A DNA stretch of 64,000 bases, taken from Candidatus Gastranaerophilales bacterium. GTDB taxonomy: Bacteria > Cyanobacteriota > Vampirovibrionia > Gastranaerophilales > Gastranaerophilaceae. This document shows, piece by piece, positions 5,720 to 49,985 of this stretch; the first letter of the stretch is position 1, and each line of letters starts with the position of its first letter. Where the stretch lies: assembly GCA_944323115.1 (NCBI GenBank), contig CALURG010000002.1, positions 1-64,000 of the forward strand, written 5' to 3'. The position numbers were made by a program, and so were the translations under genes. The notes below the pieces were generated by a model that saw nothing but the letters and a program-made list of their open reading frames with translations, searched no databases and was not told the origin of the DNA.

Positions 5720-6148
5720 ATGAATATTAATACAACAAAATTTGGTGAAATCCAAATTGATGAAAATTTAGTTTTTAATTTTGTTGAGCCTATTATTGGC
5801 TTTGAACATTTAAAAAAATATGTACTGGTTGAACATTCGGAAAGTTCCGCTTTTAAATGGCTTCAATCAGTTGAAGATCCGGCACTTGCTTTTCCGGTTA
5901 CATCTCCGGCCTTTTTTGATATTGACTATCAATTTGAAATTCCAACTGATAAGGCGGAAAAAATAGGTTTGAGCAATGTTGAATCTCTTATATCTTTAAA
6001 CATAGTTACAATCCCTGCCGGCAATCCCAGATTGTCTACAATAAATTTGCTTGCACCTATTATAATTAATGCGACAAACAGAGAAGGCATGCAGATAATT
6101 TTGTCAAATTCCAATTATCCTGTAAAAGAAAGATTAATCAAAGACTAA
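5720..6148 (+). CDS. fliW: Flagellar assembly factor FliW
   Basis: FliW binds CsrA and also flagellin. When flagellin accumulates FliW is titrated away and CsrA then represses flagellin translation. The 142-aa length is typical and the family pattern is clear: an opening beta-strand TKFGEIQIDE, then IIGFEHLKKYVLVEH, then FKWLQSVEDPALAFPV. A good Shine-Dalgarno (GAGGAAAG) precedes the ATG. The gene lies 42 bp upstream of csrA on the same strand, the arrangement known from Bacillus and other bacteria, so the pair is functionally linked. Confidence 0.93.
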   Translation: MNINTTKFGEIQIDENLVFNFVEPIIGFEHLKKYVLVEHSESSAFKWLQSVEDPALAFPVTSPAFFDIDYQFEIPTDKAEKIGLSNVESLISLNIVTIPAGNPRLSTINLLAPIIINATNREGMQIILSNSNYPVKERLIKD

Positions 6149-18732: not shown

Positions 18733-20193
18733 TTATGATGAACTACCTACATTTACACCGATAGAGGCAAGTTGCTGTTGCATCAGTGAGAATTGGTTGT
18801 TCAAATCGGCAATAACTTGGTCCATATATTGGAATTGTTTTGTCAATTTTGCTTCATATGATTCTATATATTCCTGCTTGTCTGCTATTTTTTCATTCAT
18901 CCTGCTGATTTCTTCATTCAAAGAATCGGCTCTTGTTGTAAAATAGCCGCCTGTAGAAGACAATGCCGGTTTTAACGATGTTTTTACAACCTGCATTACA
19001 CCGTCACATTCCATGCCGGATGTATTGTCACCGACAAGAAGAGCTTTAACGGATGAAGGATCTTTTTCAAATGCTTGAATAAATTTTTCCTCATCAATAA
19101 CGAGCTGATTTGTATTGGCATCTACACTGGTACCTATTGCACCTGTTGTGATACCGATATCGGCAAGAGAACGATAAATGCCGTTAGTTTCAACAGTTGA
19201 TGTAACTTTTGATCTTAAGTCATTTCTGATGTTTATCAATGAGCTTTCGCCTGTGAATGCACCGCCGTTTTCGGCATCTGTACCGGCATCTGTATCAGCA
19301 ATAACTTTATTGAATGCAGCTACAAACTCTTGAAGAGCAGTAAGAACTGTTTCAGAATCCGGTTCACTGTCGATTATAATTTCAACAGGTATATCTACAC
19401 CTGAATCAGGGTCTTTGTCCGTAGTTGTTAAAATATCTATTGAAAGGCCCAAAATACCTGTGTCGTCACTTGTTAATGTATTTGAATCAGCATACCTTGT
19501 CGGCCCGCCGTCAATTCTAAAAGCGGCTCTTTCACCCATTTCAAAATTTGAACTTTTGTTGAATCCGAGAAGTTCTGCAAATGTGTGGGTTCCGTCTACA
19601 GTCTGGTCACCTGTAATTTCAATATCTTTTTGTCCGTATTCTTTGCTTTCAAGAACAATCTGTCCGTTTTGCAAATAAGCTTTTACACCTGCTGTAGATG
19701 AGTTATTTATTTTATAAATTAAAGTATCAACAGTGTTGTTTGGGTCTACACTAATTGTTGCACCGTTAATTTCAAATGTTGCATTTTGTGTAATTCCCAG
19801 TTCTGACAATTTTGTTGATGAATTTCTCAACAAATCATTTGTATCAGACTTTCTTACAGATTGAGTTGCAAGACTGTCAATTGCCAGTTCAAACTTGGAA
19901 GGTGTTGCGTATTGAGTTACCGTTGCTGTAACAATACTTGTTTCGGATGTGGATACGGATACTTTTGAAAATATATCCATGCCTGCACCGAGAAGTGAAT
20001 CTGTCAACTTGGTTGCGGTTGATTCCAAAGAACTGTATTCAGATTTCAGGGTATTAAGTGCTTGTTGTTTTTTGGTAAGCACTTCTTTTTCTTTTTCAAG
20101 AGTTTCAACCTTAGCCTCTTCTACGCCGACAAAAGCTTTTATCCATTCATCGATTGGTAATCCTGAACCTAGACCTGAAAATGATATTGACAT
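18733..20193 (-). CDS. fliD: Flagellar filament cap protein FliD (normal size)
   Basis: FliD (HAP2) forms the cap at the filament tip that folds incoming flagellin. The 486 residues show the N-terminal FliD domain (SISFSGLGSGLPIDEWIKAF, then a coiled coil to about 75), a central region with flagellin-IN-like motifs (about 130-190, DTLIYKINNSSTAGVKAYLQ) and the FliD C-terminal domain with its final coiled coil (RADSLNEEISRMNEKIADKQ). It lies 120 bp downstream of the giant fliD-like gene on the same strand. A good Shine-Dalgarno (AGAGGTG) precedes the start. It is probably the structural cap. No sigma-28-type promoter was recognised. Confidence 0.93.
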   Translation of the reverse strand: MSISFSGLGSGLPIDEWIKAFVGVEEAKVETLEKEKEVLTKKQQALNTLKSEYSSLESTATKLTDSLLGAGMDIFSKVSVSTSETSIVTATVTQYATPSKFELAIDSLATQSVRKSDTNDLLRNSSTKLSELGITQNATFEINGATISVDPNNTVDTLIYKINNSSTAGVKAYLQNGQIVLESKEYGQKDIEITGDQTVDGTHTFAELLGFNKSSNFEMGERAAFRIDGGPTRYADSNTLTSDDTGILGLSIDILTTTDKDPDSGVDIPVEIIIDSEPDSETVLTALQEFVAAFNKVIADTDAGTDAENGGAFTGESSLINIRNDLRSKVTSTVETNGIYRSLADIGITTGAIGTSVDANTNQLVIDEEKFIQAFEKDPSSVKALLVGDNTSGMECDGVMQVVKTSLKPALSSTGGYFTTRADSLNEEISRMNEKIADKQEYIESYEAKLTKQFQYMDQVIADLNNQFSLMQQQLASIGVNVGSSS

Positions 20194-20313: not shown

Positions 20314-23300
20314 TTACTGAACGATGGGATTGAAACCCGGATTGTTTTGATTAAGTATCAATCTTGTTACAGATGTTGCATATTGACTGTTTAGATTTGC
20401 AATGGCTTCATTGATAAATCTGTATTGTTCTTCTAGTTTTGCCAGATATTCGCTCAAACCGTCTGTTGCCGGAGTGCCTGACACAGCGAGCCTCAATTCA
20501 TTCAATTCAAATGTCGTACGGGTAATTTCACGTTTAAGTTCTTTTTGAACGGCGGAAAGTACTCTAGGTGTACTGTTGAAGTATCCGTTGTTGTTGTTTA
20601 CTTCCGGATAGAGTACATTGTTGAGTCTTGTTAATACACCGTCTTCTACACCGACAACAGTTTCTTTACCGATTAAAAGATCCATGACATGCTGTGAGTC
20701 AGCATAGAATGCATCAGTATATTTCTGTTTGTCGAGATAGATTCTGACAGTACCCATATTTGAGTTTTCGCCGCCTTTGATATCGACTGTAATACCGATA
20801 TCTGCAAGCTGCTGCTGAATTTTTCTCATATCTGCAACATCATCCGTGAGTGCTGCTTTTACATTATTAATTATTTTTGCAAAATCAGCATCATCGGACA
20901 AAATGGCATTTTCTGAAGAAATCATTGCTTTGTTGAAGTTGGCAACAAATTTATTCAATTCAACCAAGCTTGCGTCAAGCAAGTTTTGACCTATCTTGAT
21001 AGTTGTTTCACCTGTTTTCTTGATTTCAATAGTAATTGCTGCCTGGTTTTCATTTGCAACTACTTTGCCGTTTTTATCAAGGTAAATCAAGTTGTTGCCG
21101 TTGTAGATGTTGTCATTTGTAATATCTTTTAAATCGAGAGCTATATCGTAATCAGTTCCTACTGTATCATTTCCGATTTTGATATTAAAGTTAGCATTCT
21201 GACCCATATCAACTACATTGTTTCTTGATGAGTAATCAGTGAAGCCTACGACTTCCGTAAAGTTTGTGGAGCCGGCTTCGATTTCGATTCTTGCATTTGA
21301 AGAAGCATTTTTTGTTGTCAAAACAATCTGGTTGTTTTTAAACTCTGCTGTAACTGCAATGTCATCATATATCGCACTGTTGAATACGGAATTTATTCTT
21401 CCTATGACATCTTCAATTGTATCGGTTTCTTTGATAGTAATATCAACACCGTTAATCCTGAAAGTACCGCCGTTGATACCCATAGAAGCCATAGTTGCTT
21501 TGCTTGAAACGGAAAGTTTGTCACTTGTCAAAACTGTGTGAGATGCAGCGACACCTGACTCATGCGTACCGTTGTATACACCGCCTGTAGTGAAACCAAG
21601 TACAGTAGTAAAATCAGATGAACCTTTGCTTATTGAAATGCTTCCTTCACCGGTGTCAGCATCTTTTGTAAGCACCAGCTTGTTGTTTGAGTTTAATGAA
21701 GCTGTAACACCTGTGTTTGCTGCATTTATTTTGTCTATAACATCGTATATAGAATCAGTGGATTCGATATCAATAGTGTAATCTTTGACTGTTCCGTTGT
21801 CTTCAACTGAAATTATGAAATCACCTTCGGTAAATCGTTTTGATGTGCTGACAGAGTTTGGAGCAACAATAGATGTTTGAGAACCGTATTGAGTTGTTGC
21901 AGACTGATATCCGCCGGATGTAAAGCCGATTTTGTTTGTAAAATCGGATGAACCTTTGGTTACAAGCACACCGCCGGCTGTTTCAGAAGAATTTCTTGTG
22001 ATAACCATCTTACCGGAATCATTAATTGAAGCAGTTACGCCGAGACCGGAGTTGTTGATTTTTTCTATAATAGAATCAATTTTTTCATTTTTGCCGATGG
22101 TGATTTTGACCGTGTCGGTAATATTTCCGTTGGTATCAGTAAGGTGTACAAAGAAATCACCTGCTGAAATACCGGAGTTTTGAGCGGATTGGGCAGTGTT
22201 TGCTGAGGTGTAAGTGGATAATACACCTTTGTCTACACCGACGAGCTGTATTCCTCCGCCGTTTATAAATCCTGCAATTTCTGCAAAGTTGCTTGTTCCG
22301 TCTTTAAGTGAGATATCGACAGCACCCGGATTTTGGGCAGTAAGAACAAGTTTTCCGTCTTGTATGCTTGCACTGACACCAAGACCTGATGCATTTATTT
22401 TATTTATTACAGATGTAAGTGATTCTCCTTCAAGTACATCGAAATTAACGGTGTTTCCGTCGACAGTGATTGAGAAATCTCCGGCAGAGAAGCTTACATT
22501 ACCTGTTATATTGTTTGTACCGGTGAGCGTGCTGTATTCGTCTGCGGTACCGGTAGTGCTTGAGATTTCATCTTCACCGAGCACTTCTTCTTGTGCAAGT
22601 CCGAGATATTTGTCAAGGCCGCTTGTGCCGCCAAATTCCATGTCCATAATGCCGCCTTGAACTGTAGTTACGACAAATCGTCCGTTTTCATCAAAACTTG
22701 CAATGTAGTCGCCATCCGCATTTATTGCCTCTATCAAATCACCCAGAGTCATTCCTTGAGTGATATTTACGCTGACTTCTATACCGTTGCCGGAAGATAT
22801 CGTAAATGTCTTGCCCGAGCCTGCATATTGAGGCGGAATTTCTGTTTTGTACAGAGAATTTCCGGCTGCCGGTCTTGTGTGGTTGTCGAATATACTGTTG
22901 TAATCGAGTTTGGGCGTAGTGCCTGAGATATTCCAGATGTTTTGATTCCAGCTCGAGAATACACTGTTGTTTCCATTGTATGTTTTGACTGTGTCTGTAT
23001 CAATTATTGCATAGTTTTCATATGATACGGAACTTGGGAAAGTTGATGTTATTCCTGACGAACTGCTGTAGTATATATCAGAAATAAATGCATATCCATA
23101 AGTATTTTCACCTATGCCGCCGATTAAGGCTTCGGAGAATTGGCCATCGTAGAATATATGATCAATGTGTCCGCCGGAAATTGCACCAACTAAAGCACCT
23201 GAGGCGACAGCTCCACTTGTAATATTGCTGTTTACATATACATTGGATATTTCAGATTCATAAACGGCACCAGCAATATTTCCAGAAACATAACCTATAC

Positions 23301-26300
23301 TAATATTCATATCGCTATTTGTTATTATTGAATTTGTTATTTTAACGGAAGTTCCAAAACCAATAATGACACCTGCTCCAGCAACACCATTATTGCTACC
23401 GATTGTGACATTCTCAACATTTACTTTGTTTATTATTGTGCCATCTCCTGCACTTCCTGCGATTGCTCCAACGAAGGTAGCGTCAGCTTGCATTGTTGAG
23501 TTTACAATGGTGACATCTTCAATTATGCTGCCGCTTCCGGCGTTTCCAGTCAATATACCGACATAGTTATCAGTACCAGTCTCTGATGCTGTAACACTGG
23601 CATTTTCAATTTTGACATTTTTGATTGTTGCACCTGAAATATTTCCGAATAATCCGACACCAGAATCGATAGTTGTTTCATTTATTGTCAGATTTGATAT
23701 AGTGAATCCATTACCGTTGAGTTCACCCGTGAACGGATTATCTTTGCTTCCGCCAATAGCTGTCCAATCGACACCGGATAGGTCGATGTTGTTCATCAAT
23801 ATATATTTTCCGGAGAGATTGTTGTTTATGTTCTGCAAATCAGCAGATGTTTTAATAACAGTGTATCCGAGTGCAATTGCTTCTTCTTCCGTGAGTTTGT
23901 ATATAGGATCAAGATCTGTCGGATCATATCCTTTGACGCCTTGTGTTTTTTCATAGTTTTCTTTTGTTGTTCCAGAGAAAGCAAGGAGTTCCGGTTTTCC
24001 ATTTTCAAATGTCCATATAGATGAGCTCCATCCCGTAAAGTTTGATGCATCACCTGCTTGTGATGTTGTCAGACCTTTGACGTTTGTACCTGTTTGACCG
24101 GCACTTGTTTTGCCTGAAATTTGAGTATTCCAATAGCTATTCCTTATTGTAGAGCCTGTTCTAAATGAACCGACAAGACCATTACCTACGTTTGTAAATG
24201 TTGTTTCTGCATACGAATATTCAATGGTACCGTTGTTGGAATTTTCACTGCTGACACCGTTATATCCGGCAATACCACCTACAGACCCTTGTCCGCTTAG
24301 CTTACCTTTAGCAAATGCATTGGATATTATACCGCCTGCGTTGTTGAAGCCGACAATTCCGCCGACACCTGTTCCGCCATCCGCAGTACCTGTGACGTCA
24401 GTATCTGAGTATGCATATTTTATAGTACCTGAGTTTCCTCCAGATACACCGCCGTCATTGTTGTATCCTTGTACAGTACCTTCAACGTATATGTATTCAG
24501 CTTTTCCGCCGCTGCCGACTGCACCGAATGCACCGCCTGTCTGTGTCCAGCCTGTTACGTTAACACCTGTAACTTTTATGTTGTAGGCATTGCCATACAA
24601 GGTACCTGCAACTACACCTGTATTGTTGCCGCCTTTTACTGTAGCACCTTCTATTGTCAGGTTCTTTATCATAGAACCGTTTTCTGTTCTTGCGAACAAA
24701 CCTACAGTGGAATTTGCCTCTTGGTCGTTTACGGTTTTGCTTATTTTGAGGTTTTTGATTGTGTATCCGTTACCGTCTAAAGTTCCTTTGAATCCTGAAG
24801 TTCTGCTGCCGATAGGTGTCCATGTCGTGCCTGACAGGTCTATATCTGCCATCAATATGTATTTGCCCCTCAGATTGTTTTTAATATTTTTCAAATCTGA
24901 AACAGAATCAATGATTGTGTATCCTTGAGCTTCTGCTTCTTCTCTTGTTAGAGGTGTGAACAGAGGTGCTGTTGCTTTGTATTCTTTGAGGCCGGTGATT
25001 TTGCCAAAGTTCCCTGTTGCATCTGATATAACGAGATCTGAATATATTGGCTCTGCGGTGCCGCTGACTCTGGACATAACGAATTTTCCGTCAATGATTT
25101 CAGCAAAAATTCCGGATTCTGCTGTTTTTTGGTTGATTAAATCAACCAGATCATTGATTGTTGCATCGCTTGATGTAGTGGAAACAGTAAATTCATTACC
25201 TATTTTTCCGAATTTTATTGTTGTTTCACCGACAATAGTGTCTCCGGTCAGTGTGTTTCCGCCTTTTAGTATAGTCGGAGCATCAGAAGTACCGCCGCCT
25301 CCTTGTTCGTTTTTGGTTGCAGTGCCCGTGATTTCAACAAAGTTGCTGGAACCGGCACCTATTCTCAATGTTTCCGTGCTGCCGCTTAAATATTCAAATA
25401 CAACTCTGCCTTGACTGTTTATAGAGGCAACAACACCGGTGTGGGCGGATTCGTTATTTATCTGTTCAATTACATCGTTAATATAACCGCCTTCTAAGTA
25501 TATTGTCTGGTCATTTATAACTATAGTACCGCTGCTGATTTTTGTTGCACCGACATCTCTGTTTAAAACAGGCATGCCGTTTGATGTAGTTGTTGAAAAA
25601 TCCCATGCTGATTGATCCCATCCGGCAAAGATAGATTTGAGATCATTTGATGACAGCATAGACTGTGTTAAATGCGTAATACCTGTTACATCTGTAGTTG
25701 TAACACTTCCAACAGCTTTGTCGCTTGAACTATTTTGATAATAGTAGTTACCAACATATCTACCTGCTAGGTCGCTAAAACCGATGAAACTTCCTTTGTA
25801 GGTTTTAGCTGATGTTGATGTATTAGAGCTATTTAACGTTATACTACCATTATTGGTATAGTTGTTATAGTAATAACCGCCATAGTCATATCCTGCAAGA
25901 CCTCCAGCATACGTGGTTTTTGTTGCAGTATTCATGGTTATTTTTCCATCAGCATAGTTGTTTACGACCCTTGCACCGGAGTTTCCTCCAACCAATCCAC
26001 CTATAGAGGATAAGGATGTCGCTCCATTTATTTCTGTATAATTTATATTTACTGATGCTGATGACTGTTGGATACCTGAAGCATTTGTTGTTGAACTGAT
26101 GCTACCTACCAACCCTCCGGCAAACATATTGCCTGACAGTTCCATATTGCCGCTTGCTGCGACATTTCTGATAACAAAACTGCCGCCTTCTTCATCAGCT
26201 AGTGCACTACCTGCGAGGACACCAACTGACGATGGTATTGTTTGGTTTCCGTTTACCGTAACGCTTGCGTTTTCAAATGTGATATCAGTAACCAGAGATC

Positions 26301-29300
26301 CATCTCCGAGTTTTGAGAAGAAACCGATATAGCTGTTGTCAGTACTTGTAACAGTTTTGTTTATAGTCAGATTTTCGATTGCAAATCCGTTACCGTTCAA
26401 TTCTCCTGTAAATTCACCGAGCGGATTCCAATCTATACCGGACAAATCAATGTCGTTCATTAATATATATTTGCCGGAAAGATTGTTTGCAATATTTTGC
26501 AAATCCTGCGCTGTTTTTAAGACAGTATATCCTTCAGCAATAGCTTCTTCTTCTGTTAATTTGCTTGTCAATACAGGACTTGAGCCTATTTGTTGTCCGG
26601 AATTTGAGAAAATGTCTGACGCAACTGTCGGTTTGATGCCTGTTACTTTGAGAATGTTGCTGGAGCCTCTTTGAATTTCGATACTTGTTGAGCTGCCATC
26701 AGCATTTTGCAGCATAAATTTGTTTTCGCTGTTCAAAGAAGCTACTACACCGGTAGTTGATGATTCTGCGTTTATCTGATCAATGACATCTTCTATCGAG
26801 CCTCCGGAAATGCTGATGTTGTGTCCGTTTATTATTATGCTTCCTGCCGAGACTTGGGTTCCTTCGTTTGTAACTTTTGTCGGGTCTGTGTATCCGACAT
26901 CTTTTAAAGTCGGAAGTGTACCTGTTGTATCCCAGTATTCCGGATTTTCAGGATTGAATTCTGAAATGTCTTTGAATGTTACAGGTCCATAATTGCTTCC
27001 TACTGCATTAAGACCGCTGTTCAGTGAAGAATCCCAGTATCCGCTTGTTTCATCACCATTGTCATTACGGTTTATGCCGATTACTGCACCCATATAACTT
27101 CCAGATGATGATATAGCTATTGAGGATGTAGTATAAATATTATTTACATCTGTAGAATCTGCATTTTCTCCAATGAAACCGCCTACTATTGAATCGGAAT
27201 TTAAGTATCCTATCGTATTTGATGCAGCATAAGAGTGGGAGATATCACCGGCGTTGTAACCGATAAATCCTCCTACAGCTGCACCTGCTTCGGTAAATAG
27301 TGAAATAACAGTTGAATTTGCGGAATATGAACGTGTGATTGTATCTCCACTTTCAATTTGGCCTATAAATCCACCTACTGTTGTCAAGCCCATTACAGAA
27401 ACATTGTTTGTATTTGAATTTGATATTACGGAAGAACCTGTTGAACTGTCTGTATCTACTGTTGATATACCTACAAGGCCGCCTGCGATATCTGCACTGA
27501 CTGTTGTATTTTGTACGGAACTGTTTGTTATTGTGGAATCAATTATTGCTGCAGCAATACCTCCTGCTGCATGTCCAATTGCATCACCTCCAGATACGTA
27601 TGAATTGTCAACCAAAACATTTGAAATCTCGGTATTTTTTGCAAGTCCGACAAGAGCACCGCCTGATCCAGAAAAATATAGAGTTGCATTGTCTATTTTT
27701 ACATTTTTAAATACGGCACCGTCCGATTCTCTGAACAAGCCGACAGCTTTGCCGCCTTCTGTTGTTTCGCTTCCTGCGGCTTTGTTGTCACTGGTACCAA
27801 TGCTTAATCCTGATATTGTATAGCCGTTGCCGTTGAATTCACCTGTAAAGACTCCGTTAATCAGCGAGTCGGAAAGTGTACCAAGTGAGCTCAAATCAAT
27901 ATCATTCATCAAAATATATTTGCCAGAAAGATTGTTCTGGATGTTTTGCAAGTCACTTACTGATTCAATCAAAGTGTAGCCTTGAGCAAGTGCTTCACTT
28001 TCTGTAATCATAGTGTTTTCACCTATGAGAATACCATTATTTGAGCCAGAAGCCGGCAAGTTTGCTTCTGTTTTTATTGTCATACCGCCTGTTTCTTCTG
28101 TCCAGGCATTGGATAGGGAAATTTGAGACAGTCCGTAGAAGCTGTCAAAATCACCTGTGGATCTGACTGTGATATCTGATACATTTGAAGCACCTTCTAC
28201 AACAAGCTTGCCGTCTTTTACAGACAAAGTGACGGCTCCGTTGGCAGCTGCATTGATTTTTTCTATTGCGGTAGTGAGTGATTCACCGCTGTTTATTGTG
28301 ACTTCAAAGCTTGATTCGACACCGTTTCTATTGAATGAAATTTTTACTGTTTCTGTTTCCGATGCGTTTTGTGAGATGTAGCCTGAGTTTAACATAGATT
28401 CAGTGACAGTCGTACCGCCTCTCAAAGCTTCGGAGGCAGAAATAACCACAGTACCGGGACTGAATACAGGATAAATACTTATCGGGCAGGCTTGAGTAGC
28501 TCCACTTGCAATATACCATTCACCTGTTTCAAGTAAACTTGCAAAACTTTCTTGCGGGTTTGCCTGCAATTCAGTTATTGTTTTTAATACAAAATTTGTA
28601 AATGTACTGGAATTGAGATCATTTCCGGTGGGATCTGTCAAGTTATAAGTGGTTGTAGTGGTTGATGTTGTAAGTCCGATTATCACATTGTCCGCTGTCG
28701 AGTTTGATGATTGCCCGAATATTGCACCTTTGTATCTTACATAACTGGGATTTATTGTACCGTCTTCTGCTATAGGGTTGAAAGATCCTGCTACTAAAGA
28801 ATCAGTAACTGTTGTATTGATGCCGAATCCTACTATGCCTCCTGCAATTTCACCGGTAAGTCTTGTAGCGTAAGACATTACATTATCAACAACAGCTTCG
28901 CTTCCGTCTGTGCCGCCTAAAATACCTCCAACACAAGAAGATGGCGTGTTTGCGTTTACTAAAATTGTTGTAGATGTTGAAACGACATTTGATATTGTTA
29001 GCTGCGGACCGCTGGTATCAGGTGAAGAAACCACGAGACCGACCAATCCGCCGACATAAACATTGTCAGTGTCAGTTAAACTTATTGATGTTTGCGATGT
29101 GATTACATTGTCAATAACAGTTCCCCCCATTGCTATACCTGCTATGGCACCTGCTGCACTATTTACTGAGCCTGTAATTCTTGTATTGGACATATAGAGA
29201 TTTTTGACTGTTGCTCCGTCAAGTGCAGCAAACAAGCCGGAGGCATCGTATGAACCGGAACTTCTAAGTCCTACTATTCTATGTCCGTTACCGTTCAATT

Positions 29301-32300
29301 CTCCGGTAAAAGCATTGTATGTAGAGCCTATTCTTGCCCAAGATTGACCTGAGAGATTTATGTCGGCCATAAGTATATACTTGCCGTCCATATCGTTTTT
29401 GATATTTTTAAGATCATTGGCTGTTTTTATGACAGTGTAGCCTTGAGCAATTGCTTCTGCCTCTGTCAGTACACCTGTTTCAGGAGCAGCAGTTGTTTGT
29501 GACACTGTAGAAGTGTTTGATGTGTAGTCGCCAAGACCGATAACTCTGGCAAAATCGCCTTCGGCTGTGACTTCAAATTTTGAGCCCATTTCTGTAGAAG
29601 CAGTGTGTTCGAGTTTCAGGGTATGGTAGTCTCTGCCTTCTTCGTCAACCGCAGCAACGAGTGAGGCTGTGACGCCGATACCGCTTGTGTTGATTTCGTT
29701 GACAATCTGCTGTAGAGTTTTGCCTTCAGCGTTGAATTTTGTATCTTTAATGGTAATGCTGCCGGATGTGAAGGTGTTTGACTCGTTTTCTGCATAATCG
29801 TAAACACGCAGATTGGACTGGATAGTCGTTGTAAATTCCGGAGCTTCGCCTTCAAACTCTGTTGAACCTGTGACCTGGAGCTTGCTATCTGTTCCCATGA
29901 CAATAGTCCAGTTTCCGGAAGTTGTACCTGTAGCGGTAGAACTACCTGATCCTTTTGATACCTGCCACAACAAGACAGGTTCTTCACCATCACCTTTATA
30001 CCATATAGTATCATCAAATTCAGTCGGTAAAGAACTTGAATAAGCAAGGCTACTGGAGGTAGTGTTTGCAGCTACAGATTCTATTTCGGGTATAGCATCA
30101 TAGCTGCCGTTGTTTACGTATTTGCCTTGAATTGAATCGATATTTTTGTCAATAGTATATGCAAATTGATTATAATTACTGTTTGTATCACCACTGTACG
30201 CAGTATTGCTATATCCATTATAAATACGTGTTCCTGAATCTATATATGATATAAATCCGCCAACATCTTGTAGCTCTTTTGCACTTATGTTGCCATCAAC
30301 GTAGCAGTTATTTATGTTTGTATCTTCTGCACTTGCTATAAACCCTCCAATATCCCCGCTATTATATTCATATATGTTATTACTGTTGATTGTTCCTTGA
30401 TAGAATGATTTGCTAATTGTTGAGTGTGAAGCTGTACGTACAAAACCGCCTGCATTCCTAAAACCTGATAATGTACCTGTTGCATAAGAATTTGATATAC
30501 TTCCACTAGTAGAAATACTATCCACCAATCCACCAGCACTAGTATTTGCTCCCGAACTAGTTGTAATAGCAGTTATGTTTACTGAAGACCAGCAAGAATC
30601 TATTTCTGTGTCAGTACCTTCATGTATTAATCCGCCAGCACTGTATGCAGTAATGTTACCAGTAGTATAACAATTGGTTATTTTGGCATGATCCATACTT
30701 GTTGCCAAAACGCCTGCATCACCATCGATAGTAATATTTGCATCTGTTATACCCAGATTTCGAATTTCTGCTTTAGCATTAGTTTCGCTATATCCAGATG
30801 TGCTAAACAAGGCATTGTTTATATTTTTTATTTCATATCCGTTTCCATCAAAAATGCCTATAAAATCTTCAATAGTTACCCAATCATAACCTGACAAATC
30901 AATATCATTCATAAGAATGTATTTTCCTGTTATGGACAGACAAGGTATAACTTCTGAATCTTTATTTTCTCTTATTCTATCTAAATCATCTGCTGTTTTT
31001 ATTATTGTATAGCCTTGTGCAATAGCTTCTTCTTCTGTCAGTCTGGTTACGGCATTTATAAAAGTACCCGTTTGAGCAGGTCCAATACTGTTTGTTTTGT
31101 TCTGAAATTCTGATTCTGATGCAAACTCATCTATACTTATGTCAACTGGATTACCCACAGCATTTTCTTGCTGAGTTTTATCCGTTATGTTTATTATGTT
31201 GTTATATGAGTTAATACCGCTTTCATTATACGTATAGCCGACAAAAGCACCTGTATATGAACTTCCTGTGACTTTTCCTGCTGCAATACTTTCATCAAAG
31301 TGATTCATTTTAGTATTGCCAACAAATCCGCCTACATAGTAATTGCCTGTGACATTTACTTCTGAACGGATATTTTCAAATAATGATCTTTTTGATGAAC
31401 CTATTATGCCGCCAATAGAATTTTGACCATTAACATTTCCGGAAAAATAAGAATTAGTAATTTCGCTCCAGCTGTCAGATTCTTCATCTCTGCCGGCAAG
31501 GACACCGACATTGTTTCCACCTGTAATGTTTGCGTTTTCTATGCCTAAATTTTTTATTGTTGCTTTGTTTAATTTTGAAAACAGGCCAACGTAATCTTCA
31601 TCAGGTGTATTAATAGTCAAATTTTTGATTGAATATCCGTTACCATCTAAAGTACCTTTAAATTCGCCAAGAGGTGTCCAATCTACTCCGGATAGGTTGA
31701 TATCATTCATGAGAATGTATTTTCCGGATAGATTATCATTTATTTTTTGCAAGTCACTTACACTCTCAATAACAGTGTAGCCTGCATTAATTGCTTCATC
31801 TTTAGTCATACGGATATATTCCGGTGCATCAATAGGTGTAGTTGTATCGGATGTACCTATCTGGGCTGTTGTTGTGTCTCCGCCAATCACTGTTGAAAAG
31901 TTACCTGATTCCGATGTAAAGTTTATTGCTTTTGCACCTGTCTGGGTATTTGCCAGCACAAATTTTCCGTCGCTGTTCAGGTAGGCTTCTACGCCTGTGA
32001 AGCTTGAATATCCGTTTATTGTGTTCATTGCAGAACCCAACGTTCCGGAAAGCTGCATTTTTTGTCCGTTTATATAAATAACTGAACTTTCAATTGCAGT
32101 GCTTGTTGACAGGCCGGTTTTTGATGCGGTCATTGTTGTTTTTGTACCGCCCAGAATTTCTCTTATTCCGCCTTCTGTCTGGAATGCGGCCGTACCGGTA
32201 ACTTGTGTAAAGTTTGATGAGCCGGCTTCAATATTTATTGAGTGTGAACCGGTTTTTGTATTTGTAAATACAAGTTTACCGTCTTTTATTGCAGCTGTTA

Positions 32301-34671
32301 CGCCTGTTTCTGCACTATATTCATTGATTTTGTTTACTGCTTCGGAGAGTGTTCCGTCTTCCAGTGTAATCTGGTAGCCGTTTATTTTGATTGTACCGCC
32401 TGTGATTGCGTCTCCTGCCGAAACATTGTACGCACCGGTCAATGTCGATTTGTCGCCGACTTTTCCCACTGTCGCCGTTGCTGCACTTTGTGCTTTTGAA
32501 ATAAATCCAGCAACCGATGCAAAATCTGATGTACCGGATTCTATATATATTGTGTAATCTGGGCCGGTTTTGTTTGCCTGTAAAACAACATTTCCGTCTT
32601 TCAGGTATGCGTTTACGCCTGTCTGGTCTGTATATGAGTTTATTTTTTGTATAGCGGAATTTATGTTTCCTGCGTCAATCTGAATGGTTACGCCGTTAAT
32701 CATAAACGAGCCGGCACTCACTGCTGTGCTTCCGCTTACGTTTGTTGAGCCTGTCATAGAAGTGAACTGATTTACGTCAGAACCAGGAGAAAGCACGCCT
32801 GTGTTCATTACATTTGATGTAAGGCCTGCTTTTTCAGTAAAGTTGGTTGCACCTGCCTGTATTGTTATATCAAAATCAGCACCTGCGTTATTTTGTTCAA
32901 TTTTAAAATAGCCGTCAGCTGTAATACTTGCAGTCAGTCCTATACCTGCATCTGTAATCTTTTGTGCGATACTTTCTTTTGTATCGCTTGCTGTTACGTC
33001 AATTGTTGCCGAAATTGTTTCAAACAGTGCTGTTTTTCCGTCGTCTGATACTTTATTTGTTGAAATTGTGAACGAGCCTTCAGTGAATCCGCTGTTTGGC
33101 ACTACAGTTGTTCCGAGCAAGTATGAATTTTCTGCATCTTTTGATGTGGTGTTGCTTACGTTCGATGTCATTCCGACGTAATTTGTAAAGTTTGATGAGC
33201 CTGCTTCAACTGAAATATCAAACTCTGCACCTTTTTGTGTTTGTCTGATAACCAGATGGCCATTTACAATTTCTGCTGTAAGGCCTGTTTGGACTGTATT
33301 GCCTTCTTCATCAATATAAGAACCTTTTGTCTGGTTTTTGATTTTTTCGATGATTGAATTTACCGTATCTGAGCTTGTGACTTCAATAGTTACGGTTTGC
33401 ATTTCGTGAGAGACATTGCCGTGTTCATCGATTTTGTTAAATGAAATATTGAAGTTTCCTGCTGTGAATTTGCCTGAGGATACAGAATCGGTACCTTTTA
33501 CAGAACCGTTTTGGCCCGTAAGTGTTACGTATGAGCCGTCAGAACCCATTACAAGATTCGAGGTGTTCATTACACCGCCTACCGTAAAGCCTATGGCATT
33601 TGTGAAGTTTGATGTACCTTTTTCAACTAGTATATCAACTTCTCCGGTTTGTGATGCAACAAATACAAGTTTTCCGTCCTCAAGTTTTGCGCCCACATTG
33701 TCTGCTGAGGCGGAGTTTATATCCGCCATCAGTGAGCCGATTGTTGTAGTGTCCGTGATTTCAAATGATGCACCGTTTATATAGAAGTTTCCTTCTGTAA
33801 CGGTCAATCCCATCAATGAGGTAAAGTTTGATGTTTGTGATGTAATAGCAATTGATTTTCCTGCATCTCCCGAAATAACAAGTCTGCCGACTGCTTCTCC
33901 GTTGCTGTCATATTCCGCAGTTTCGATAGATGCGTTGTATCCTGCATTTTTGATTTTTTGTATCAATGTACCGATTGTATCATTTTCGGCATCTACTGTG
34001 ATTGTTGCTGAGCCAAGATTGAATGAGCCGCTTGTTACACCCAATTCGGAAAGTTTCAGGCTCTCTTTTATATCCTGGCGGTTTGTTTTGATTGCATTAT
34101 TTGCAACGTCGTATATGCCTGCAAACAGGTCTGTGACTTTTGTATTCTTTGTTACATTGCCGCCTACCAGCACTTCACTTTTCAGTACTGATGTCGTTGC
34201 TATCTGCGTAACATCAAGTGTTATTTCCTGAATGTTTGTGTTTTTGTCGTTTACTGTAACATTGACCTTGTCATTGGATGTGCCTTTGTTTCCGTCAAGG
34301 TAGATGTCCGGATCTTTGTTTGCGGAATTCGGGTTCTTTAGGCTTTCTATGTATTTGTCCAGTGATGAAACTGTGCTGCTGTAGCTTTTTTTAAGGCTGT
34401 TTATTGTAGTGATTTTGTTTGCGTTGAAAGCGTACTGTTCATTCAGTCTGTCAATTGTATCTTGAAGACTGGCAATTTGTGAGCTGTAAGAGCTGTTTAT
34501 TGAACCTGTGTTGAGCATTCCTCCCTGTAAAGCCGCAAGTGTATTTTCGATAGAAGATTTTTGCTCCAAAAGAGTATTCAAAGATTGTGTCCTTTTGGAC
34601 ACCAGCTGCGAAATTAATGCACTTACAGAGGTATTTGTAGAACCTCCGAGATTTCCTATTGAAATGTTCAT
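20314..34671 (-). CDS. Giant FliD-like protein with flagellin-IN and GLUG modules
   Basis: One uninterrupted frame of 4,785 codons encodes a protein of roughly 0.5 MDa. The N-terminus (1 to about 165) is FliD-like: SIGNLGGSTNTSVSALISQL, then a coiled coil and a T-rich strand region. Then come many repeats ending in GTSNFT-x-x-x-GF that match the flagellin-IN motif; seven or so lie between about 200 and 960. Seven GLUG blocks, with their linker YILMNDIDLSG centred near residues 985, 1252, 1765, 2253, 2735, 3272 and 3624, alternate with further IN units. More IN units lie at about 3945-4480. The C-terminus (about 4487-4785) is FliD_C-like with a final coiled coil (LAKLEEQYRFINEAIANLNS). No Sec signal is present, consistent with flagellar type III export. 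The Shine-Dalgarno is weak. It is the upstream neighbour of fliD. Confidence 0.93.
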   Translation of the reverse strand: MNISIGNLGGSTNTSVSALISQLVSKRTQSLNTLLEQKSSIENTLAALQGGMLNTGSINSSYSSQIASLQDTIDRLNEQYAFNANKITTINSLKKSYSSTVSSLDKYIESLKNPNSANKDPDIYLDGNKGTSNDKVNVTVNDKNTNIQEITLDVTQIATTSVLKSEVLVGGNVTKNTKVTDLFAGIYDVANNAIKTNRQDIKESLKLSELGVTSGSFNLGSATITVDAENDTIGTLIQKIKNAGYNASIETAEYDSNGEAVGRLVISGDAGKSIAITSQTSNFTSLMGLTVTEGNFYINGASFEITDTTTIGSLMADINSASADNVGAKLEDGKLVFVASQTGEVDILVEKGTSNFTNAIGFTVGGVMNTSNLVMGSDGSYVTLTGQNGSVKGTDSVSSGKFTAGNFNISFNKIDEHGNVSHEMQTVTIEVTSSDTVNSIIEKIKNQTKGSYIDEEGNTVQTGLTAEIVNGHLVIRQTQKGAEFDISVEAGSSNFTNYVGMTSNVSNTTSKDAENSYLLGTTVVPNSGFTEGSFTISTNKVSDDGKTALFETISATIDVTASDTKESIAQKITDAGIGLTASITADGYFKIEQNNAGADFDITIQAGATNFTEKAGLTSNVMNTGVLSPGSDVNQFTSMTGSTNVSGSTAVSAGSFMINGVTIQIDAGNINSAIQKINSYTDQTGVNAYLKDGNVVLQANKTGPDYTIYIESGTSDFASVAGFISKAQSAATATVGKVGDKSTLTGAYNVSAGDAITGGTIKINGYQITLEDGTLSEAVNKINEYSAETGVTAAIKDGKLVFTNTKTGSHSINIEAGSSNFTQVTGTAAFQTEGGIREILGGTKTTMTASKTGLSTSTAIESSVIYINGQKMQLSGTLGSAMNTINGYSSFTGVEAYLNSDGKFVLANTQTGAKAINFTSESGNFSTVIGGDTTTAQIGTSDTTTPIDAPEYIRMTKDEAINAGYTVIESVSDLQKINDNLSGKYILMNDINLSGVDWTPLGEFKGTLDGNGYSIKNLTINTPDEDYVGLFSKLNKATIKNLGIENANITGGNNVGVLAGRDEESDSWSEITNSYFSGNVNGQNSIGGIIGSSKRSLFENIRSEVNVTGNYYVGGFVGNTKMNHFDESIAAGKVTGSSYTGAFVGYTYNESGINSYNNIINITDKTQQENAVGNPVDISIDEFASESEFQNKTNSIGPAQTGTFINAVTRLTEEEAIAQGYTIIKTADDLDRIRENKDSEVIPCLSITGKYILMNDIDLSGYDWVTIEDFIGIFDGNGYEIKNINNALFSTSGYSETNAKAEIRNLGITDANITIDGDAGVLATSMDHAKITNCYTTGNITAYSAGGLIHEGTDTEIDSCWSSVNITAITTSSGANTSAGGLVDSISTSGSISNSYATGTLSGFRNAGGFVRTASHSTISKSFYQGTINSNNIYEYNSGDIGGFIASAEDTNINNCYVDGNISAKELQDVGGFISYIDSGTRIYNGYSNTAYSGDTNSNYNQFAYTIDKNIDSIQGKYVNNGSYDAIPEIESVAANTTSSSLAYSSSLPTEFDDTIWYKGDGEEPVLLWQVSKGSGSSTATGTTSGNWTIVMGTDSKLQVTGSTEFEGEAPEFTTTIQSNLRVYDYAENESNTFTSGSITIKDTKFNAEGKTLQQIVNEINTSGIGVTASLVAAVDEEGRDYHTLKLEHTASTEMGSKFEVTAEGDFARVIGLGDYTSNTSTVSQTTAAPETGVLTEAEAIAQGYTVIKTANDLKNIKNDMDGKYILMADINLSGQSWARIGSTYNAFTGELNGNGHRIVGLRSSGSYDASGLFAALDGATVKNLYMSNTRITGSVNSAAGAIAGIAMGGTVIDNVITSQTSISLTDTDNVYVGGLVGLVVSSPDTSGPQLTISNVVSTSTTILVNANTPSSCVGGILGGTDGSEAVVDNVMSYATRLTGEIAGGIVGFGINTTVTDSLVAGSFNPIAEDGTINPSYVRYKGAIFGQSSNSTADNVIIGLTTSTTTTTYNLTDPTGNDLNSSTFTNFVLKTITELQANPQESFASLLETGEWYIASGATQACPISIYPVFSPGTVVISASEALRGGTTVTESMLNSGYISQNASETETVKISFNRNGVESSFEVTINSGESLTTAIEKINAAANGAVTLSVKDGKLVVEGASNVSDITVRSTGDFDSFYGLSQISLSNAWTEETGGMTIKTEANLPASGSNNGILIGENTMITESEALAQGYTLIESVSDLQNIQNNLSGKYILMNDIDLSSLGTLSDSLINGVFTGEFNGNGYTISGLSIGTSDNKAAGSETTEGGKAVGLFRESDGAVFKNVKIDNATLYFSGSGGALVGLAKNTEISNVLVDNSYVSGGDAIGHAAGGIAAAIIDSTITNSSVQNTTVSADIAGGLVGISTVDTDSSTGSSVISNSNTNNVSVMGLTTVGGFIGQIESGDTITRSYSANSTVISLFTEAGAAVGGFIGYNAGDISHSYAASNTIGYLNSDSIVGGFIGENADSTDVNNIYTTSSIAISSSGSYMGAVIGINRNDNGDETSGYWDSSLNSGLNAVGSNYGPVTFKDISEFNPENPEYWDTTGTLPTLKDVGYTDPTKVTNEGTQVSAGSIIINGHNISISGGSIEDVIDQINAESSTTGVVASLNSENKFMLQNADGSSTSIEIQRGSSNILKVTGIKPTVASDIFSNSGQQIGSSPVLTSKLTEEEAIAEGYTVLKTAQDLQNIANNLSGKYILMNDIDLSGIDWNPLGEFTGELNGNGFAIENLTINKTVTSTDNSYIGFFSKLGDGSLVTDITFENASVTVNGNQTIPSSVGVLAGSALADEEGGSFVIRNVAASGNMELSGNMFAGGLVGSISSTTNASGIQQSSASVNINYTEINGATSLSSIGGLVGGNSGARVVNNYADGKITMNTATKTTYAGGLAGYDYGGYYYNNYTNNGSITLNSSNTSTSAKTYKGSFIGFSDLAGRYVGNYYYQNSSSDKAVGSVTTTDVTGITHLTQSMLSSNDLKSIFAGWDQSAWDFSTTTSNGMPVLNRDVGATKISSGTIVINDQTIYLEGGYINDVIEQINNESAHTGVVASINSQGRVVFEYLSGSTETLRIGAGSSNFVEITGTATKNEQGGGGTSDAPTILKGGNTLTGDTIVGETTIKFGKIGNEFTVSTTSSDATINDLVDLINQKTAESGIFAEIIDGKFVMSRVSGTAEPIYSDLVISDATGNFGKITGLKEYKATAPLFTPLTREEAEAQGYTIIDSVSDLKNIKNNLRGKYILMADIDLSGTTWTPIGSRTSGFKGTLDGNGYTIKNLKISKTVNDQEANSTVGLFARTENGSMIKNLTIEGATVKGGNNTGVVAGTLYGNAYNIKVTGVNVTGWTQTGGAFGAVGSGGKAEYIYVEGTVQGYNNDGGVSGGNSGTIKYAYSDTDVTGTADGGTGVGGIVGFNNAGGIISNAFAKGKLSGQGSVGGIAGYNGVSSENSNNGTIEYSYAETTFTNVGNGLVGSFRTGSTIRNSYWNTQISGKTSAGQTGTNVKGLTTSQAGDASNFTGWSSSIWTFENGKPELLAFSGTTKENYEKTQGVKGYDPTDLDPIYKLTEEEAIALGYTVIKTSADLQNINNNLSGKYILMNNIDLSGVDWTAIGGSKDNPFTGELNGNGFTISNLTINETTIDSGVGLFGNISGATIKNVKIENASVTASETGTDNYVGILTGNAGSGSIIEDVTIVNSTMQADATFVGAIAGSAGDGTIINKVNVENVTIGSNNGVAGAGVIIGFGTSVKITNSIITNSDMNISIGYVSGNIAGAVYESEISNVYVNSNITSGAVASGALVGAISGGHIDHIFYDGQFSEALIGGIGENTYGYAFISDIYYSSSSGITSTFPSSVSYENYAIIDTDTVKTYNGNNSVFSSWNQNIWNISGTTPKLDYNSIFDNHTRPAAGNSLYKTEIPPQYAGSGKTFTISSGNGIEVSVNITQGMTLGDLIEAINADGDYIASFDENGRFVVTTVQGGIMDMEFGGTSGLDKYLGLAQEEVLGEDEISSTTGTADEYSTLTGTNNITGNVSFSAGDFSITVDGNTVNFDVLEGESLTSVINKINASGLGVSASIQDGKLVLTAQNPGAVDISLKDGTSNFAEIAGFINGGGIQLVGVDKGVLSTYTSANTAQSAQNSGISAGDFFVHLTDTNGNITDTVKITIGKNEKIDSIIEKINNSGLGVTASINDSGKMVITRNSSETAGGVLVTKGSSDFTNKIGFTSGGYQSATTQYGSQTSIVAPNSVSTSKRFTEGDFIISVEDNGTVKDYTIDIESTDSIYDVIDKINAANTGVTASLNSNNKLVLTKDADTGEGSISISKGSSDFTTVLGFTTGGVYNGTHESGVAASHTVLTSDKLSVSSKATMASMGINGGTFRINGVDITIKETDTIEDVIGRINSVFNSAIYDDIAVTAEFKNNQIVLTTKNASSNARIEIEAGSTNFTEVVGFTDYSSRNNVVDMGQNANFNIKIGNDTVGTDYDIALDLKDITNDNIYNGNNLIYLDKNGKVVANENQAAITIEIKKTGETTIKIGQNLLDASLVELNKFVANFNKAMISSENAILSDDADFAKIINNVKAALTDDVADMRKIQQQLADIGITVDIKGGENSNMGTVRIYLDKQKYTDAFYADSQHVMDLLIGKETVVGVEDGVLTRLNNVLYPEVNNNNGYFNSTPRVLSAVQKELKREITRTTFELNELRLAVSGTPATDGLSEYLAKLEEQYRFINEAIANLNSQYATSVTRLILNQNNPGFNPIVQ
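22870..31810 (-). repeat. Seven GLUG-repeat blocks within the giant FliD-like gene
   Basis: Each block opens with almost the same linker, for example LTEEEAIAQGYTVIKT, then DLQNIxNNLSGKYILMNDIDLSG, then a G-x-L-N/D-G-N-G-Y/F stretch. A run of GLUG-type units follows (for instance VGLFSKLNKATIKNLGIENA and GGNNVGVLAG). Between blocks are flagellin-IN-like modules such as AGSIIINGHNISISGG with a GSSN-containing end. GLUG units are known from bacterial surface adhesins and IgA-type peptidases and are predicted to form beta-solenoids. The regular alternation points to duplication of a combined unit. Confidence 0.85.
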
Positions 34672-34972
34672 TTCGGCTCACAAAATCTTTTATCTACTAC
34701 AACACATACATAGTATATCATATTGATATCTATATTGCAAGGTCTTACTATATAAATGCCCTATATTTTTAAATTATAACAATAGTGTTAATTCCTGACA
34801 ATTGCTTAAAATGCTTTTGTGATGTGTTTTTACGTTGATTTTAAATGTAAAAATGACACTAAAATTTTTACAAAAATTAAAGTTTATTTTATAGATTTTG
34901 TCAGAGCCACCTCTGACATCTTTTTGTGACTTAAAATCAACAAATAAATTTGTGTAAGAAAAAATTTACATT
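34672..34972. other. Divergent intergenic region, giant fliD-like gene / bamA
   Basis: This 301-bp AT-rich spacer separates two divergent genes and must hold both promoters. It contains a perfect 9-bp inverted repeat, TGTAAAAAT (34846-34854) and ATTTTTACA (34864-34872), which could be an operator, and a terminator-like hairpin listed separately. I could not assign -10/-35 boxes with confidence, and no sigma-28-like box was recognised. Confidence 0.5.
34899..34918 (+). terminator. Terminator-like hairpin upstream of bamA
   Basis: TGTCAGAG (34899-34906) and CTCTGACA (34911-34918) form a perfect 8-bp stem with a 4-nt loop, followed by TCTTTTT. In form it is a Rho-independent terminator reading toward bamA, yet no plus-strand gene precedes it. 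It may be a leader attenuator of the bamA transcript or mark the end of an unseen small RNA. Confidence 0.55.
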
Positions 34973-37922: not shown

Positions 37923-39101
37923 ATGACTTTACTAGGCGACATAAATATATACGAAGAAGAAGAGCAAGAAGATACAAAATACACTTACGGTATTTACAAA
38001 AAAGAGGATCGAAACGATATTCCGCTTCCGAAGTGTTTATTGTTCTCCGCAGCTTTACATCCTTTGACTGCTGCTTTGGTTTGGTTAAGTATAGTTATTC
38101 TTGCATTTTTAGGTGTAAATTTAGCTATATTTGAAAAACCGCAGCAAAAGCCGAAAGATATTGAATTTGTCCTTGTAAACAAAGAAGCAACTCCTATAAA
38201 TAAAAATACAAAATACAGAGCTGACAGAAATTCCAGAGCAGGAGGGAAACATGACCCTACCCGTGCTGTATCACAGCCGACAGCTTCGTCACCGGCAAGC
38301 AAGCCGCAGAATGCTGCACCTGCTCAAAAAACACAGCCCAAAAAACAGTCACAACCAAAGCAAAATCCCGTGCAGCCCAAAAAACAACAGCCTAAGGCAC
38401 AGCCAAAACAAATGCAAATGCCGTGGGCTCCCAAGCCTGCACAAAAACCCTCTGTACCACAAGGTGTTCCTAAAGCTCCGTCAACTGCACCGAGACCTGC
38501 ATTAAAACCCAGTGCTCCTATGGCTAAAAAGCCAAGCGGTAGTTTTAATATTCCTATACCTAAAGCAGCAGCTCCAAAGGTTGCAGGACCGTCAGCCGGA
38601 CCTGTTGCAGGTTCAAAAACCGGTTCCGGTTCTCGCAGCGGCTCAGGTTCTTCTGGAAAATCGTCACCTTCTCCGAGTTTTTCTCCCAGCGGGGGAAGCT
38701 CTGCCGGAGGAAGATTCTCCCCGAGTAGTGCTGGTAGAGGCGGTAACGTAGGAAATCCGGGTCCCGGAAATCCAAAAGGTGCTCCGGGTATTGATGCCCT
38801 GAAAGAGCCTGATTTTGGCCCGTATATGAGAGAGCTTCAAAGAAGAATTAAAATGAACTGGGAGCCTCCAAAAGGTAACGAAAGTAAAAGAGTAGTTCTT
38901 TTGTTCAAAATTGCCAGAGACGGCAGGCTTATTTCCCACAGAGTATACAAATCATCAGGACTGCCTGCTGCTGACAGAGCAGCAATGCATGCGGTAGAAC
39001 TCACAGCACCGTTTAAACCGCTGCCTCCGGAATACAGAGGTGACAGTGTTGATATTCAATTTACATTCGATTACAACGTATTTGGTGCAACTTCTTATTA
39101 G
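37923..39101 (+). CDS. TonB/TolA-like energy transducer
   Basis: This 392-aa protein has an acidic cytoplasmic N-terminus (1-38), one transmembrane helix (about 40-69, FSAALHPLTAALVWLSIVIL), a long Pro/Lys/Gln/Ala-rich then Gly/Ser-rich periplasmic spacer (about 75-285) and a TonB-family C-terminal domain (about 290-392; YMRELQRRIKMNWEPPKG, LLFKIARDGRLISHRVYKSS). The C-domain contacts outer-membrane or Pal-like partners. exbB and two exbD genes follow within 40-60 bp of each other, so this is one energy-transduction operon. The large N-terminal cytoplasmic part is longer than in classic TonB. Confidence 0.88.
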   Translation: MTLLGDINIYEEEEQEDTKYTYGIYKKEDRNDIPLPKCLLFSAALHPLTAALVWLSIVILAFLGVNLAIFEKPQQKPKDIEFVLVNKEATPINKNTKYRADRNSRAGGKHDPTRAVSQPTASSPASKPQNAAPAQKTQPKKQSQPKQNPVQPKKQQPKAQPKQMQMPWAPKPAQKPSVPQGVPKAPSTAPRPALKPSAPMAKKPSGSFNIPIPKAAAPKVAGPSAGPVAGSKTGSGSRSGSGSSGKSSPSPSFSPSGGSSAGGRFSPSSAGRGGNVGNPGPGNPKGAPGIDALKEPDFGPYMRELQRRIKMNWEPPKGNESKRVVLLFKIARDGRLISHRVYKSSGLPAADRAAMHAVELTAPFKPLPPEYRGDSVDIQFTFDYNVFGATSY

Positions 39102-49054: not shown

Positions 49055-49112
49055 TATTTTTAGTTTATAGACGTATAAAATTTTATATGATAAATTTATA
49101 TTGAGAGTTGCT

Positions 49113-49610
49113 ATGAATCCTTATCTTAAACAATACCGACAAACACAAATAAACACTGCATCAAAAGAGCAAATACTTTTGATGTTGTATGACGGTGCGG
49201 TTAGATTTCTGCATCAGGCAAAAGCGGGCTTTGCTGAAAAAAATATAGAAAAAATTCATAATAATATTGTAAAAGTTCAAAATATTATTACTGAATTTGA
49301 ATCTTCACTTGATATGGAAAATGGCGGTGAATTTGCAAGAAGATTATTTGGTTTGTATGAATTTATGAGCCAGCAGCTTTCTAATGCAAATATAAAAAAG
49401 AACGAAGCCAGTCTTGATATTGTTATAAAACATATGACAGAGCTAAGGGATACTTGGAGAGAGGCTGTTAGAAAATTCAAAGCCGAAGGTAATTCTTTAA
49501 TGGATAATGATATTGATAAGTATTCTATATCCGGTGCTAATGTTGAAGAATCTGACGTGGCTGAAGATGAAGAAGAAGATGAAGAAGACAATATGGGAGA
49601 GTACATATAA
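49113..49610 (+). CDS. fliS: Flagellin chaperone FliS
   Basis: FliS binds the C-terminal helix of flagellin and prevents premature polymerisation. The 166-aa protein has the family pattern from the start (MNPYLKQYRQTQINTASKEQ, then ILLMLYDGAVRFLHQAK) followed by the four-helix bundle to about 125. The ATG at 49113 is supported by the canonical NPYLKQYR start; an in-frame TTG 12 bp upstream is unlikely. The C-terminal ~35 residues form a highly acidic tail (DVAEDEEEDEEDNMGEY) that is longer than usual for FliS. The next gene begins directly after its stop. Confidence 0.94.
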   Translation: MNPYLKQYRQTQINTASKEQILLMLYDGAVRFLHQAKAGFAEKNIEKIHNNIVKVQNIITEFESSLDMENGGEFARRLFGLYEFMSQQLSNANIKKNEASLDIVIKHMTELRDTWREAVRKFKAEGNSLMDNDIDKYSISGANVEESDVAEDEEEDEEDNMGEYI

Positions 49611-49985
49611 GTGAGCACTGTTGATTTGGAAAATCTTGAAATGACTTATAACAGATTGTATGAACTTTCTGTACAAATCGGACAGCTTATTGACCGAAAA
49701 TTGTATTCTGAGTTAATAACTTTCATGAAGAAGAAAGATAAGCTTCTAAAAGATGCTGAAAAAATTGTAACAAAACTTGCCAACAAGGAATTTAATAATG
49801 CCAAACTTGTTGAAATTTGTACTAAATATGAACAGCAGGAAATTGCTAATATTGAGGCATTGAAGTTGGTTAGAGATGAAGTAAAAAAAGAATTGTCTAA
49901 AGCGTCAAAAGATTCAAAACTTCTTAGAGCGTATTCTCCAAATAATGAACTAAAACAAGGAAATATTTTAGATTACAGGCAGTAG
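49611..49985 (+). CDS. FliT-like flagellar chaperone (probable)
   Basis: This 124-aa all-helical protein begins with GTG immediately after the fliS TAA stop, with no gap. It looks like the small chaperones that commonly follow fliS, such as FliT, which binds FliD and FlhC-type regulators. Visible features are amphipathic helices LYELSVQIGQLIDRKLYSEL and a lysine-rich coiled coil. The assignment rests mainly on position and size, since FliT sequence is poorly conserved. It is 2 bp upstream of a cation transporter gene. Confidence 0.65.
   Translation: MSTVDLENLEMTYNRLYELSVQIGQLIDRKLYSELITFMKKKDKLLKDAEKIVTKLANKEFNNAKLVEICTKYEQQEIANIEALKLVRDEVKKELSKASKDSKLLRAYSPNNELKQGNILDYRQ

Follow-up and report, generated by a model that had tools for sequence, protein, structure and literature searches.

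The closest described relative of the protein considered here is FliD (HAP2), the flagellar filament cap. In FliD the head (D2-D3) is an insertion between the two halves of D1 (PMC8533109), and in studied FliD it is dispensable for capping. Pseudomonas aeruginosa FliD works without D2/D3, and a head from a FliD twice its size was tolerated, size not being the limiting factor, although 8- and 10-histidine inserts impaired motility; the tolerated heads had a pI below five (PMC8533109). Recent structures show FliD caps as pentamers (PMC7316729, PMC12221982), while other oligomers have also been reported (PMC7316729). P. aeruginosa FliD is reported as a mucin adhesin (work cited in PMC8533109). 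Flagellar gene sets in some Gastranaerophilales and in a termite-gut relative are in print (PMC5877343, PMC4040986).

The window analyzed here is a 64,000-nucleotide stretch of contig CALURG010000002.1 (positions 1 to 64,000, GenBank assembly GCA_944323115.1) from a Candidatus Gastranaerophilales bacterium, a gut bacterium related to cyanobacteria. One uninterrupted ORF occupies positions 20314-34671 on the minus strand (ATG start, 4785 aa plus stop), whereas the same stretch read in the first frame of the plus strand is full of stops. The predicted protein weighs about 500 kDa, has a pI of 4.37 and contains six cysteines (0.13%, against 1.08% in 32 other ORFs of the window). A normal-sized FliD of 486 aa (18733-20193, minus strand; FliD_N 2.8e-15 and FliD_C 3.8e-38) is encoded 120 nt downstream on the same strand, and FliS (49101-49610) and FliW (5720-6148) also lie in the window. 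The sequence-only reading had proposed a giant FliD-like cap protein with FliD-type ends, an interior expanded about tenfold with flagellin-IN-type modules and adhesin-type GLUG blocks. These proposals are supported, with some refinements. The gene is on the minus strand, the normal FliD next to it indicates that the giant is an additional cap paralogue rather than the only cap, the giant belongs to a family, and the GLUG zone lies in the middle between two IN ladders.

Pfam finds Flagellin_IN (PF07196; 13 stretches, E 2.3e-57) and the GLUG-bearing Peptidase_M26_N region (PF05342; five stretches, E 1e-30) in the protein, but neither FliD_N (PF02465) nor FliD_C (PF07195) is matched at E<=1. However, several other observations indicate that both ends are FliD-related. 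The last 328 residues hit the neighboring FliD at E 5.3e-13 with 28% identity. Profile-profile comparison (hhalign) of 12 giants with 16 normal FliD sequences of the family gave 99.9% over 257 columns for the C-terminal region (20317-21234, minus strand, residues 4480-4785), which would correspond to the second half of D1 and the final coiled coil. The N-terminal region (34051-34671, minus strand, residues 1-207), which would contain the N-terminal helix, a coiled coil and the first half of D1, gave 97.4% over 101 columns against whole FliD and 98.1% over 118 columns against the FliD N-half. This N-end match starts at about residue 70, and the first helix resembles FliD by eye only. The controls were low: reversed profiles gave 7.9% (C) and 0.4% (N), and 20 column shuffles each gave at most 0.9% and 1.7%, respectively. 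A direct N-end hit to FliD covers residues 168-277, mostly the first IN module, and so it is not used as evidence for the N-end.

The orthologues are also informative. FliD_C passes its cut-off in window-type giants such as those of the family genomes G033, G064, G092, G112 and G137 (for example, in frames of 6214, 3022, 11061, 7277, 8905 and 3837 aa), but it is not matched in the window's own giant or in that of genome G005, and FliD_N is not matched in the G137 giant. Two giants from a second clade, of 4700 and 6589 aa, carry both FliD_N and FliD_C over cut-off (only the two 500-aa ends of the longer one were scanned). A structural model of residues 4030-4785 (11-row alignment) has FliD or cap-filament-complex entries as its ten best Foldseek matches, the best being Helicobacter pylori FliD at E 3.5e-7. 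VIA-align gives Z 11.1 to Escherichia coli FliD D1-D3 over 256 residues at 15.1 A rmsd, so the domains match but not their mutual orientation, and the overall confidence of the model is low (pLDDT 66, pTM 0.28). In contrast, a sequence search of the PDB with the C-end profile found no FliD; the 13 matches were mainly coiled coils (best E 0.004). NCBIfam names the giant only weakly (31.9 bits against a cut-off of 444), best over the last IN module.

Iterated HMMs place 15 IN modules and seven GLUG blocks between the two ends. An N-side ladder of six IN modules (31882-34050, minus strand, residues 208-930) is followed by a central GLUG zone (22819-31809, minus strand, residues 955-3951) with seven GLUG blocks and four IN modules between them. 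The headers of GLUG blocks 1 to 7, all on the minus strand, are at 31486-31809, 30694-31041, 29131-29469, 27637-28008, 26203-26559, 24595-24951 and 23539-23895, respectively. PF07581 (Glug) has four matches over its cut-off inside the frame and six weaker ones. A C-side ladder of five IN modules (21235-22818, minus strand, residues 3952-4479) completes the interior; its last module fits FliD D2 in the model, but the IN modules fit flagellin D2 as well (Z 11.2 over 99 residues). One IN+GLUG unit (residues 3120-3592, seven-row alignment) was modelled as a parallel beta-helix like those of IgA1 proteases (Foldseek E 2.1e-4; VIA Z 21.7 to 7uvk over 261 residues, 3.4 A), above lyases, tailspikes and the adhesin PfbA at Z 13-16. 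The confidence of this model is also low (pLDDT 57, better in its first half), and its IN part matches FliD weakly (Foldseek E 0.05 and above).

The giant is not an isolated oddity. Of 146 genomes drawn from the window's family (Gastranaerophilales), 59 have a Flagellin_N match and 55 have a FliD_C over cut-off. At least 14 of the 146 encode a FliD-like frame over 2000 aa; all 14 are among those with flagellin, and 13 also have a normal FliD frame of 475-605 aa (genome G135 shows only a 279-aa piece). A class-wide search of 382 genomes gave at least 39 genomes with such frames. The longest giant, in G064, reads 11,051 aa from its first start codon. Beyond the window's phylum only one pattern-limited scan of genome contigs was made; its ten confirmed loci are nine titled Candidatus Gastranaerophilales and one uncultured bacterium. 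In nine genomes (the window's, G005, G284, G292, G322, G335, G336, G374 and G396) the giant lies 110-120 nt upstream of the normal fliD, and in the eight read that far a gene recognized by eye as recR follows on the other strand. The giant runs off the contig in G284, G322, G335 and G336.

A tree of the last 300 residues with 55 rows (30 giants, of which one has only 1295 aa and five are cut by contig ends, and 25 normal FliDs) places 19 giants in one clade (100/100) apart from all normal FliDs in the tree and 11 in another (100/98) nested within normal FliDs. The giant label needs two changes, and starred branches force two. However, the root is a midpoint for drawing and some branches are long, so two origins is the simplest reading rather than a proof. 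In the window's genus, the giant and FliD parts of the tree both group the window with G335, G322 and G336, with G322 and G336 as sisters, which fits vertical inheritance, although the order of the window and G335 differs between them.

The giants evolve under purifying selection. Twelve pairwise comparisons give dN/dS values of 0.026-0.228, although synonymous sites are near saturation in most, and so the ratios are rough. Cysteine is depleted about eightfold (0.14% in pooled giants against 1.15% in small ORFs). Between G005 and three relatives the FliD-like ends are 80-94% identical and the IN ladders 57-89%, but the GLUG zone is only 35-69% identical; the GLUG zone is also lowest (33-39%) when the window is compared with G005, G335 and G322. 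Between the 11,051-aa giant of G064 and those of G112 and G092, only 3825 and 2610 of 6425 GLUG-zone residues align, while the ends stay 77-92% identical; a comparison of the G064 and G033 long-class giants is not considered because of an alignment artefact at the N-side.

A second class of giants has IN modules only and displays a different pattern. It keeps 28 modules and 3980, 3980, 3981 and 3980 aa in four genomes, which is unusually rigid for a repeat protein, and it has 27 modules in G137. These proteins are 83-92% identical in the four pairs computed and evenly so along their length. In G033, G064 and G112 an IN-only giant and a giant of the other class are divergent neighbors (in G033 that neighbor, of 3012 aa, has no GLUG block).

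The number of IN modules in the two ladders covaries. Spearman correlations of the N-side and C-side counts are 0.93 over 13 full-length GLUG giants and 0.94 over six clade means (exact one-sided p 0.008), but the correlation is weaker when measured in residues (0.66, p 0.013). The 13 proteins are related, the clade-mean version has only six points, and the IN model was seeded on the window's protein, so modules of the second clade may be undercounted. Because the FliD head is inserted between the two halves of D1, a chain that goes out and returns should have ladders of matched length with the GLUG zone farthest away, and that is what the counts suggest.

A sigma70-like promoter candidate, TTGCAA-17-TATACT (34712-34740, minus strand), precedes the giant, and TTGAAG-17-TATACT is found at the same place in the four same-genus giants aligned, as read by eye from the alignment. 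The sequence just before the giant's start (34672-34740, minus strand) is strongly conserved in the five genus members aligned (TTGTGAGCCGAA or close to it directly before ATG), with no obvious Shine-Dalgarno sequence. Before the nine giants tested, no sigma28-like site was better than most shuffles (in the best case, G092, 35 of 200 shuffles were as good), and likewise for fliD and fliS; of five flagellin upstream regions, one looked suggestive (10 of 200). No FliT-type chaperone was recognized: a 124-aa ORF after fliS (49611-49985) and a 122-aa ORF between the giant and fliD in G137 hit no Pfam or NCBIfam model. An ORF at 37923-39101 (TonB-like by eye) has a tandem repeat of about 54 bases (38325-38425) coding for a Lys/Pro/Gln-rich stretch.

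The number of Flagellin_N matches is higher in giant-bearing genomes (14 genomes, median 9.5) than in the 45 others (median 5), but giants cluster by genus, and so we do not lean on this difference; four genomes with FliD-like frames of 1088-1666 aa were counted as non-giant. An 837-aa flagellin running off another contig of the window's genome (contig C39, 3-2513, minus strand) carries RTX calcium-binding repeats (HemolysinCabind, E 3.7e-11) after Flagellin_N, i.e., a flagellin with an RTX-type outer part. In G092 a 1435-aa flagellin (contig C6, 99789-104096, minus strand) stands next to the 7267-aa giant. An FHIPEP/FlhA homologue is present in 145 of the 146 genomes, flagellated or not, and 58 of the 59 genomes with flagellin (not G084) show a clearly higher-scoring one (848-885 bits), which suggests a second, widespread type III-like export component in the family.

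Taken together, we think it somewhat more likely than not that the gene encodes a second cap protein, a giant paralogue of FliD, that is probably exported by the flagellum and probably serves as a flagellar-tip adhesin. Its two ends would keep the FliD core (coiled coils and split D1), which could dock into a filament tip or mix with the neighboring normal FliD. The chain would leave the cap as a ladder of IN (D2-like) modules, form a distal zone of GLUG beta-helices and return as a second IN ladder of similar length. About five such arms per cap, exported unfolded through the flagellar channel, would put glycan-binding-type beta-helices tens of nanometers beyond the filament tip. The homology of the ends, the modular architecture, the conservation of the ends and ladders, the variability of the GLUG zone and the presence of giants only in genomes with flagellin among those sampled are established, and the pI is in the range of the heads tolerated by P. 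aeruginosa FliD. However, export, location at the tip, which the sequence-only reading had also conjectured, hairpin geometry, arm number and reach, and adhesion are inferred; the low cysteine content and the absence of a Sec-type signal, as judged by eye, are merely consistent with flagellar export. Furthermore, the IN-only class offers no variable tip, and so adhesion cannot be the whole story.

An alternative, which we consider unlikely but possible, is that the FliD-like ends are only an export and folding framework, and that the protein leaves through the flagellar apparatus but works elsewhere, i.e., secreted, at the hook-filament junction or attached to the cell surface, and never caps a filament. 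The giants of the window's clade lie on a long branch (0.96 on the midpoint-rooted drawing) away from all normal FliDs in the tree, their C-terminal tail differs from that of normal FliDs, and a normal FliD frame is present in 13 of the 14 giant-bearing genomes. However, both ends stay conserved between G005 and three relatives while the middle diverges, whereas an export signal alone would presumably need only the N-terminus, and the two second-clade giants scanned keep both FliD Pfam domains.

A more doubtful possibility is that the protein is a tip cap in which the beta-helix blocks act as glycan-cleaving or mucus-penetrating devices, or in which the arms act mechanically, rather than as adhesins. 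The GLUG block model also matches many polysaccharide lyases and phage tailspikes (Z 13-16), and the IN-only class has no GLUG blocks at all. These lower matches, however, share a common beta-helix fold at about 6-14% identity, adhesins such as PfbA score alike (Z 14.4), and Pfam found no catalytic domain in the protein at E<=1. Neutral or runaway module expansion is very unlikely; although lengths at one locus differ (4785-6553 aa among the five genus members read at full length), it is disfavored by the dN/dS values over thousands of codons, the constant IN-only class and the matched ladder counts. An assembly or gene-fusion artefact is refuted, even though the source is a draft genome in 100 contigs, because the same locus, gene order and module types occur in nine genomes and the 14-kb frame is intact inside a 155-kb contig.

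Caps are small in the flagella that have been studied. A lineage with FliD relatives of 2400 to 11,051 aa (by length roughly 0.25 to 1.15 MDa) shows how far the head can be exchanged, offers a natural test of the length limits of flagellar protein export and suggests that flagella of little-known gut Melainabacteria double as long-reach adhesins. More tentatively, the giants would perhaps be the longest substrates of the flagellar export channel, and gigantism of the cap would have arisen twice in one bacterial family.

FliD proteins with extra head domains and giant flagellins are already known, but a FliD-like protein of thousands of residues with IN ladders and GLUG beta-helices was not described in the titles or abstract openings we examined, among which most subscription papers were not represented. 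Compared with FliD itself, the window protein has related ends, a last IN module that fits D2 in a low-confidence model and a normal fliD beside it, but its head is expanded to 15 IN modules plus seven GLUG blocks, it has 4785 aa against 474-678 aa in the 16 normal FliDs compared, and it falls below the FliD Pfam cut-offs. The FliDs of Campylobacter (D4; PMC7316729) and Helicobacter (a D2-D5 head; PMC8533109) also have extra globular domains inserted, but only one to a few, and we saw no description of GLUG beta-helices or long tandem ladders in them. The giant flagellins (PMC6248924) are likewise axial flagellar proteins enlarged in the exposed region, to over 1000 aa, but they are filament subunits and not cap-like, and we found no mention of FliD in that paper. 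Finally, the GLUG-bearing N-terminal region of the M26 IgA1 proteases shares sequence matches and a predicted beta-helix fold with the window protein; however, no peptidase domain other than M26_N was found here among Pfam families at E<=1, and the blocks are repeated inside a FliD-like frame.
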